Source of the DNA: a virus
IMG/VR virus record: IMGVR_UViG_3300021356_000060
Span: 1-37,990 of that record
DNA length: 37,990 nucleotides
Strand: one strand, 5' to 3'
The notes beneath the pieces are model-generated. The model searched no databases, had not been told where the DNA came from, and was given only the letters and a program-made list of their open reading frames with translations. Position numbers and translations under genes: made by a program. This document shows positions 9,880-12,338 of the stretch, one piece after another (the stretch's first letter is position 1; every line of letters begins with the position of its first letter).

Positions 9880-11364
9880 TCAAGAAGCCCGCCGCATACC
9901 AAAACCATGCATTCTTCTAATGTTGTTGTACTGAATATATTTTCTGACGGACTCGCTGATCTCTGTGGCTGGCTTTGCTTTGATACCGTCAGGCCATGCT
10001 CCAAACTTCTGTTTGTAAATGTGACCAGCCCAACCCTCTTTAAATCCTTTATTCCTAGCGTGTAGCTGTAATTCTCCTAAAAACTGAGCCTTTTCGTCTG
10101 CTGTATGCGTAGCGTTAGCTCTCTCTACAGCCGTCATGCGTTTAAGCATTTGCTGGTCATTCTTGAGCTGTTCCATTCTAGGAATCTCGTACCCGCATGG
10201 GCATTTCACGCCTGTACGCTGTTGATAACATTCGGGGCATTCCCAAACCTTTGATTCTTTCTTCTCCTTAACCTGTTTAGTTTCAGAGAATGCACGATCA
10301 GCCGTATCTAGTTCTAAAGGCACTACGTGCTCTGCAAATCCGTGACGGGACACGTTGCCCGAATGATCTAAATAAATCGCATACGGCTTGTTTGAGGCCG
10401 TTCTAGCGATACGTCCTGCCCGCTGTACGTAAGCGATCAACGAGGTAGTGGGGTAGCAATCAATCAAACACCGAACATTAGGTGCGTCATACCCTACGTT
10501 GAGTAGTTTCGAGCATGACAAAATCTTGAACTCACCTCGATCATGCGCTCTAAACATTACCTCCCGTAAGTCAGGATCTGTGTATCCATCAATATGCTCT
10601 GCGCTTATCCCATTCTGCTGAAATAGCTCTACCATGTACTTTGAATGCTTGATTGAAGGACTGAAGGCAATGGTCTGGCTATTCTCCCCGTGCTTCATCC
10701 AGTTTTTGACGATATCACCTGCAAGCAGAACATCTTTTTCGATCTTATGACTCAGCGACTTCGGATCATAATCTGTGCCGCCTGTTGTCAGCGGCTTGCG
10801 TCGAACGTCCTGTAAATTGACTTTAGTGCCGCCGTAATAGTGAATTGGGCATAAATAATTCTGCTCCAATAGCTCTACAGGCGTGATAGGTACGATCAAA
10901 TCGTCATAGACGTTGCCTAAGCCTTTGCTGAATGGCGTGGCAGACAAGCCAATAAACGGAATGTTGTTGTAGGCTTCCATCATCTTTAACAGGTGTTTAT
11001 GCACCGCATGACATTCATCAACTATCGCAAAGTCGAATACTGGCATCCGGTTTCTACGTGCAAGCGTTTGGATACTAGCGATCTGTACTGGCTGGAAATG
11101 ATCTGATCTCCGGTGATTACCTTGCATCACTCCGGTTTCAATACCTTGTACATCGAAAGCGTCTAGGCTCTGTTCTACCAGCTTAATTCGATCACAGATG
11201 AAAATACCCCGTTTGCCCCGTTTCACAGCCTCTTCAAAGATGTACGCCGCTGTTATCGTCTTCCCGAATGAACATGGTGCGGCAAGGATTGGCCGTCTTT
11301 TACCCCGCGATAAGGAGTGTCTGAGCATTTGTACTGCTTTTTCTTGATGTGGTCTTAGCTCCAT
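9880..11364 (-). CDS. Superfamily 2 DECH-box helicase with C-terminal zinc motif
   Basis: A 494-aa helicase of the ResIII/DEAD-like group that uses ATP to move on or open DNA. Walker A is APCSFGKT (29-36), with Cys-Ser where Thr-Gly is usual. The Walker B box is DECH (116-119), motif III is SATP from 141, and motif VI is QRAGRIAR (314-321). A zinc-ribbon-like CxxC...CxC lies at 376-390, followed by a helical tail. Phage proteins of this kind act as replicative or origin helicases. The start overlaps the nuclease-like gene by ten bases, suggesting a functional pair. An iteron copy is embedded near its 3' end (9931-9949). Confidence 0.88.
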   Translation of the reverse strand: MELRPHQEKAVQMLRHSLSRGKRRPILAAPCSFGKTITAAYIFEEAVKRGKRGIFICDRIKLVEQSLDAFDVQGIETGVMQGNHRRSDHFQPVQIASIQTLARRNRMPVFDFAIVDECHAVHKHLLKMMEAYNNIPFIGLSATPFSKGLGNVYDDLIVPITPVELLEQNYLCPIHYYGGTKVNLQDVRRKPLTTGGTDYDPKSLSHKIEKDVLLAGDIVKNWMKHGENSQTIAFSPSIKHSKYMVELFQQNGISAEHIDGYTDPDLREVMFRAHDRGEFKILSCSKLLNVGYDAPNVRCLIDCYPTTSLIAYVQRAGRIARTASNKPYAIYLDHSGNVSRHGFAEHVVPLELDTADRAFSETKQVKEKKESKVWECPECYQQRTGVKCPCGYEIPRMEQLKNDQQMLKRMTAVERANATHTADEKAQFLGELQLHARNKGFKEGWAGHIYKQKFGAWPDGIKAKPATEISESVRKYIQYNNIRRMHGFGMRRAS

Positions 11365-11777: not shown

Positions 11778-11842
11778 CACCTTCTTCCAGCCATAGTTGT
11801 CCTTTGGAGGGCTATTAGGCAACCCCCTGTAAGTTTTTAGCG

Positions 11843-12135
11843 TTAGTCCAGTAGCATCCGGTCATCAGCAACGATATTTGGCGGCATTAGCCAAGGCTCG
11901 TAACACCTCACCCACCCGTAGGTTGCCTATTACGCTGTTTGTCCCGCCCTCAAAGGTTGGACGCTACATCTGGCTTTTGCGTACTACTGCACCATGCGAC
12001 AGTTTGAACGGACGGGGATGGACTAAAGAGGAGAATGTTTGATAAACTGAACCCGTGTTCCGGAGTGCGGCGCAGGGTATTCTCACTGTCTTCAATCCGG
12101 TCTGCTAGGGGTATTCCCACACCCCGTCCGGAACA
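11843..12135 (-). ncRNA. Structured pseudoknotted RNA, previously unrecognised class (candidate)
   Basis: A 369-base gap in an otherwise overlapping operon, with strong nested complementarity on the transcribed strand. TTAGTCCA (12026-12019) pairs with TGGACTAA (11850-11843). Stacked directly inside, GTAGCGTCC (11967-11959) pairs with GGATGCTAC (11859-11851) using one G-U pair. Within that, GGCGG/CCGCC (11948/11884) and CGTAA/TTACG (11934/11903) enclose hairpins TAGG-CAA-CCTA and AGC-CTTG-GCT. CGGACGGGG (12130-12122) pairs with CCCCGTCCG (12017-12009), making a pseudoknot, and competes with TGTTCCGGA/TCCGGAACA (12135-12127/12064-12056). The G-U pair would be an A-C mismatch on the other strand, so the RNA is most likely minus-strand. 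Class unknown. Confidence 0.6.
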
Positions 12136-12146
12136 TCTTTTTCTTT

Positions 12147-12338
12147 TTACGTTGGAATTCCGTGCTTGTCAAATATCGCTGGAATCGGATCAGTCGGATC
12201 AGGGTCTTCCCAGAGATTCAAAATCAAAGACACCTTATAGCCATCACATACAGGGCAACGTAACCCGATATCATCGATGTCGTCAGACCCGAAAGTGCTG
12301 TCGCAGTGATTGCACATAAATTTGCCATCAATCTTCAC
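12147..12338 (-). CDS. Small zinc-ribbon protein
   Basis: A 63-aa protein with two CxxC knuckles (C9/C12 and C28/C31), a typical minimal zinc ribbon, followed by an acidic Pro-rich tail. The start is GTG at 12338, eight bases after AAGGGG; an internal ATG would leave too little before the first Cys. It overlaps the previous gene by 11 bases. Such proteins bind nucleic acid or act as adaptors; the specific role is unknown. It is the last gene before the structured RNA. Confidence 0.68.
   Translation of the reverse strand: MKIDGKFMCNHCDSTFGSDDIDDIGLRCPVCDGYKVSLILNLWEDPDPTDPIPAIFDKHGIPT

Follow-up and report, generated by a model that had tools for sequence, protein, structure and literature searches.

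The locus and its relatives

The stretch of DNA analysed here (the window; 37,990 nucleotides) is a viral contig of 38 kb whose genes lie on the minus strand, along which, by PHROG and Pfam assignment, tail and lysis genes are followed by genes for Erf, a YqaJ exonuclease, NinB and NinG, then by a small zinc-ribbon ORF, a gap, a PDDEXK_14 nuclease (PF24579; 11355..11777, minus strand, likely start ATG 11777) and an SF2 helicase (phrog_16; 9880..11364, minus strand), and finally by a CHC2 zinc-ribbon primase domain, TerS, TerL, portal and head genes. The gap, correctly described in the initial annotation as 369 nt without a gene, runs from 12146 to 11778 on the minus strand, between the stop of the zinc-ribbon ORF (12147) and the ATG of the nuclease, and it appears untranslated, no forward frame being open throughout in any of 56 loci compared. 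Apart from the helicase and the CHC2 primase, no initiator was recognised in the window, and a tRNA/tmRNA search returned none. At about 52% identity to its counterpart in Kagunavirus phages (e.g., Escherichia phage ST20), the window TerL hints at a gammaproteobacterial host without proving one. A promoter-like TTGACT-18-TATATT sequence lies directly before the Erf gene (15560-15531, minus strand) and is a candidate early promoter.

With the helicase gene as bait, 36 viral loci were retrieved, most of which carry DNA similar to the gap. A search motif taken from the most conserved stretch, CTTTGAGGRCGGGN(1-4)AAACAGCGT, matched 64 stretches in IMG/VR (70 in relaxed form), and the homologues now comprise about 70 uncultured viral contigs (individual loci are given below by L numbers). 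The same motif had no match in 84,980 GTDB genomes, nor did the helicase in a scan of GTDB; blastn gave two chance-level matches but no relative among GenBank phages, and none among PLSDB plasmids, and isolated phages with a related helicase or terminase lack the RNA by covariance search. At gathering score, no family of the Rfam 15 covariance models matched the whole window; the gap region gave only a chance match at E<=10, with group I introns, GOLLD and ROOL, all raised in the initial annotation, giving none even at that level, and seven relatives gave nothing beyond chance at E<=1. No described equivalent was found in a partial literature search. The family is counted as new because Rfam 15, GenBank phages, plasmids and GTDB genomes yielded no relative, and the gap almost certainly encodes a new class of transcribed structured RNA of marine phages; this novelty is at the level of the RNA family, and a new mechanism is not thereby proven.

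Comparative fold of the RNA

Folded alone, the coding strand reaches a z score of -0.84, with 22 of 100 shuffles at least as stable, and the opposite strand one of +0.76; the window sequence being no stabler than its shuffles, only comparative evidence carries the claim of a structured RNA. That claim, a pseudoknotted RNA on the coding strand of the replication region, is strongly supported by covariation among the homologues, which also show the element to be larger than first proposed, about 12137-11791 on the minus strand (~347 nt, from homologues and alignments). Its 3' end is provisionally placed where conservation stops, after ACTATGG, at the end of a conserved tail of nearly invariant columns (AAAGGACAACTATGG, consensus AATGACNACTATKG; 11791..11805, minus strand).

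The core was examined in an alignment of 44 non-redundant copies, in which the covariation score over the 25 pairs counted is 0.370, against 0.152 after shuffling (0/500 as high) and 0.06-0.12 with slid partners. Helix a (GTAGCGTCC/GGATGCTAC; 11967-11959/11859-11851; this and all following helices on the minus strand), already listed in the initial annotation, proved real: 45 distinct segment pairs have a mean pairing score of 7.84, which falls to 4.72 when strands are re-paired among loci, with 0/1000 re-pairings as high, a count that gives no formal probability, here or below, as the loci are related. Helix b (GAGGGC/GCCCTC; 11951-11946/11812-11807) is 98.9% paired, with AU changed to GC in 11 rows. 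Nested in it is helix c (TAGGCAACC/GGTTGCCTA; 11929-11921/11824-11816), which scores poorly in the core alignment because two subtypes are offset by one column; among its 33 distinct segment pairs, 0/1000 re-pairings are as good, and read sequence by sequence it takes 18 distinct forms, including TAGGCAACC/GGTTGCCTA, GGTGATCC/GGATCACC, AGGTGACC/GGTCACCT, AGGCTACC/GGTAGCCT and GTTGCC/GGCAAC. As the 5' strands come in the order a, b, c and the 3' strands in the order a', c', b', helix a crosses both b and c, forming a pseudoknot. On these comparative grounds, covariation proves the fold of the core, with helices a, b and c in a pseudoknot.

Smaller elements complete the core. Hairpin H1 (ACTG/CAGT; 12003-12000/11989-11986) is paired in 97% of cells, with two-sided changes at all four pairs and 0/1000 re-pairings as good, and its loop forms a further pseudoknot (TGG/CCA; 11994-11992/11973-11971; 96% paired) whose middle pair alternates among UA, CG and GC. 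A hairpin GAGG/CCTT with the conserved loop TGTTACGAG (11909-11906/11896-11893) is scored as paired in only 63%, because columns shift between subtypes, and its support is limited to a subtype. The core contains 36 invariant columns, many of the invariant bases being unpaired. Helices b and c, hairpin H1 and its loop pseudoknot were absent from the initial reading, as was the RNA's own predicted promoter.

The 5' domain begins with P1 (TGTTCCGG/CCGGAACA; 12135-12128/12063-12056), which had been taken for an alternative helix and is in fact real, with 98.1% of cells paired, changes on both sides and compensatory changes at two pairs. It is followed by a hairpin GGGG/CCCC (12125-12122/12111-12108; 100% paired), in which GC changes to AU and UA on both sides. 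The helix CGGACGGGG/CCCCGTCCG (12130-12122/12017-12009), which closes the 5' domain and was first read as the second helix of the pseudoknot, does form the nine pairs first reported in the window, but only 5-7 in most relatives, is weak or absent in some and has little covariation. Because it shares bases with P1 and the GGGG hairpin and is often of only 5-7 pairs, it may be an alternative to them or a shorter helix closing the domain. Both it and P1, the two helices of the putative two-state switch in the initial annotation, are conserved, P1 more so, and in shortened form the two could coexist. Crossing P1 is the helix GGATTGAAGA/TCTTTAGTCC (12098-12089/12029-12020), extended by GAGAAT/ATTCTC (12084-12079/12036-12031), with per-sequence pairings that include GGATTGA/TCAATC and CTGAAACAA/TTGTTTCAG. 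Its scores (own 7.9, cross-paired 7.7, shuffled 6.1) lend this putative helix and its extension moderate support only, because cross-paired strands score almost as well. The helix TTAGTCCA/TGGACTAA, placed first in the initial annotation, was rejected (5.15 with its own partners, 5.02 with mismatched ones), its 5' strand pairing instead with GGATTGAAGA (12098-12089) in the 5' domain. Two further helices of the initial annotation, GGCGG/CCGCC and CGTAA/TTACG, do not persist in the alignment when it is inspected by eye.

The 5' domain is not uniform across the family. In L098, L099, L111, L115 and L156-L161 it is a different one, in which a short hairpin around TCGAGC (TCGCGC in L099) replaces the closing helix; L156-L161, although left out of the set from which the covariance model was built, still score E = 1e-25 to 1e-29 with it, which supports the fold model. 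In L024, L028 and L080, the promoter region and 5' domain are kept and are then followed, in place of the core, by an unrelated second module (L024, 2860-3155; L028, 3382-3700; L080, the last 284 nt, minus strand). Compensatory changes among the three copies are seen in its first hairpin, and the module seems itself to be structured; it had no Rfam match in L024 and L028. A 16-base pattern from it gave 39 matches, mostly those expected by chance, and a longer pattern three; only three contigs with this module are known.

The likeness to group I introns drawn initially, namely a P3/P7-like crossing of two long-range helices, does not extend further. The helix order is another one, the 5' strands of the crossing helices adjoining directly and enclosing no P4-P6-like domain; there is no Rfam match (RF00028) even at E<=10; and there are no exons and no split gene, the RNA filling the space between complete ORFs.

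Predicted promoter and strand of the RNA

In the window, a sigma-70-type promoter (12144..12172, minus strand) consists of TTGACA (12172-12167), a 17-nt spacer and TAAAAA (12149-12144), the -10 box sharing bases with the zinc-ribbon stop codon, and transcription is expected to start near 12137. Taken alone, this site is not significant, and a generic promoter scan did not report it, since the scan requires a T ending the -10 box. Among the 34 loci with the common 5' domain and sufficient upstream sequence, however, the -10 box of a sigma-70-type site ends 4-7 nt before P1 in every one. The median promoter score is 10.1, against 1.35 at control positions, with 31 of the 34 above the 95th and 26 above the 99th control percentile, an excess that is somewhat overstated, the controls being mostly coding DNA and the loci related, so that the counts are not independent. 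The -35 boxes sit in different upstream genes in different lineages, and inspection by eye shows similar promoter sites ahead of the differing 5' ends in L104, L111 and the L097 group. A conserved promoter site just before P1 implies a transcription start belonging to the RNA itself. Comparison shows the fold and the conservation of the promoter site, and from these we infer that the RNA gene is transcribed.

The wobble pairs indicate the strand. In helices a and c, 624 pairs (51 of them wobbles) are counted when G-T is allowed on the coding strand, versus 553 (25) when A-C is allowed, a surplus that fits an RNA of that strand. Shortly before the RNA promoter region lies an A-run followed by a G+C-rich hairpin, resembling an intrinsic terminator of the opposite strand, which recurs in L097, L098, L099, L111, L115 and L156-L161; such recurrence would be explained by an antisense transcript across the RNA.

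Position among phage genes and possible roles

Across the relatives, the neighbours of the RNA are genes of recombination and replication (Erf, YqaJ, NinB, NinG, helicase, primase), although L098, L099, L111 and L115 are not clearly replication modules. The gene that follows varies: it may encode a PDDEXK_14 nuclease, another nuclease-like protein, a Mom-type DNA modification protein, an HNH endonuclease, a small protein of no assigned function or the helicase itself. In L072, L076, L085 and L094, terminase genes come next and no helicase follows the RNA; L085 has the order lysis genes, Erf, YqaJ, SSB, NinB, NinG, RNA, TerS and TerL, and in this complete lysis-to-TerL stretch neither a helicase nor a primase nor an initiator could be recognised. 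In L104, the RNA is flanked by divergent operons, with a helicase gene reading leftward on one side and genes for an annealing protein and YqaJ reading rightward on the other. Isolated Vibrio and Pseudoalteromonas phages with a related helicase have a replication protein or RepL directly before it.

Several further features of these neighbourhoods were seen. The slot after the RNA (11822-11355 in the window) is a spot of turnover, occupied by a Mom-like protein in L012 and an HNH_3 endonuclease in L098. Directly before the RNA there is often a winged-helix HTH_39 protein (PF14090) or a relative of it (L064, L067, L071-L073, L076, L079, L085, L091, L094, L099, L115). Downstream of the RNA, L099, L159 and L160 encode a protein of 122-124 aa, which we take to resemble phage replication organiser proteins in their C-terminal part; for the copy in L159, there was no Pfam or PHROG match.

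As a whole, these observations are best explained by an RNA gene of a new class with its own promoter, to which we tentatively assign a role in the initiation of phage DNA replication. As for mechanism, we speculate, with some doubt, that it acts as an origin or primer RNA in the manner of lactococcal c2 phages. Host RNA polymerase would start at the sigma-70 promoter overlapping the end of the zinc-ribbon gene, and the transcript, beginning at P1, would fold into the 5' domain and a compact core held by pseudoknots, stay at or be cut at its own locus, and supply the primer or R-loop from which the fork starts. ColE1 RNA II is a transcript that primes replication at its own locus. In c2-type phages, a non-coding early transcript is thought to be crucial for origin function, the PE1 transcript having a proposed primer or R-loop role at the origin, and three unrelated origin types occur (PMC7150918). 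As a non-coding, predicted transcript of the early region with its own predicted promoter at a conserved site, the window RNA would be like the c2-type (Ceduovirus) PE1/origin, and in both cases mutually unrelated versions occupy the same site. The c2 origin, however, sits between early and late gene blocks, the probable host group differs, and no sequence relation was found, blastn in the GenBank phage collection showing no homology to the Ceduovirus origin.

The origin reading draws on the constant place of the RNA in the recombination/replication region together with the divergent arrangement in L104, on the failure to recognise an initiator in either the window or L085, on the initiator gene that some isolated relatives carry in the equivalent place, and on the exchange of whole modules, recalling the three c2 origin types. 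Against it, GC skew as an origin marker shows no turn at the RNA locus, the invariant bases of the core seem more than a primer needs, the small proteins of no assigned function could be initiators, and the four loci mentioned above are not clearly replication modules.

The rigid multi-pseudoknot core with its many invariant unpaired bases would suit instead a trans-acting phage RNA, one that is processed from the transcript and works, free or within an RNP, by binding the ribosome or a host protein, for instance, or through an RNA-only assembly like GOLLD/ROOL. The RNA's own predicted promoter with a start at P1, the differing downstream genes and a separate promoter-like site seen by eye after the RNA in L104 and L111 agree with such a role, a good alternative that we consider somewhat less likely than the origin reading. 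Against it, the RNA keeps its place in the early recombination/replication region and, at the loci examined, has the same reading direction as the next gene; only in L111 might it end at a clear terminator belonging to the RNA itself. GOLLD and ROOL occur in phages and prophages as large, ornate RNAs with pseudoknots, to which no function has been assigned (PMC12286853). The window RNA shares this general character, but they measure ~660 to >800 nt and often lie near tRNA islands, whereas it has ~350 nt and lies among recombination/replication genes; neither the window nor seven relatives matched the GOLLD, ROOL or HEARO covariance models. HEARO/omega RNAs (IscB-type) are comparable in that a structured RNA precedes a nuclease gene at some loci; here, in contrast, nucleases of unrelated families or none follow, and no variable guide segment was noticed.

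Given that the RNA begins at the predicted start and that the next start codon usually comes 15-30 nt past the conserved tail, it might also be a cis-acting leader of the transcript for helicase, primase and late genes, governing antitermination as put does, or expression of the next gene. In L085 it lies between the NinG and terminase genes, the place of the late promoter region in lambda-like phages. The HK022 put RNA, of about 70 nt with two stems, acts in antitermination and by itself changes RNA polymerase (PMC9378689). Both are phage RNAs near the start of a long transcript, but put is far shorter and lacks a comparable pseudoknotted core. The region has no excess of terminator-like sites (9 found versus 16 expected), which speaks against a leader in general and is neutral for put-type antitermination. 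With, in addition, a next gene that varies widely, start codons about 100 nt or more away in L103, L104, L110 and L111 and no conserved Shine-Dalgarno sequestering or terminator seen, a leader, though still a good alternative, is rather unlikely; nor does a riboswitch or attenuator fit, there being no fixed gene or pathway beside which an expression platform would stand.

The pseudoknotted core with its 36 invariant columns and the conserved 3' tail, which might be part of a reaction site, could also belong to a new ribozyme cutting or splicing its own transcript, and endonuclease genes of different families (PDDEXK, HNH) often follow, as with mobile introns. There is, however, no split gene and no match to a ribozyme or intron family, and we know of no catalytic motif in the RNA core, making this reading improbable. 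There is a similarly slight chance that phages without an initiator protein start replication by means of the core, which would then be a large new natural ribozyme or RNA machine working from its own folded transcript. A DNA element made of repeats or hairpins in single-stranded DNA, although it too would be at home in the replication region, is already disfavored to the point of being very improbable, since the wobble pairs fit RNA of the coding strand and the promoter keeps a constant spacing to the 5' end.

Few classes of large structured RNA have a fold proven by comparison, and most of those from phages have no known job. Structure, expression and function of the present RNA can be tested together, since ~70 copies, a covariance model, a promoter and a predicted 5' end are available; if it does prime replication, it would reveal how a family of phages that have no recognised initiator begins to copy its DNA.
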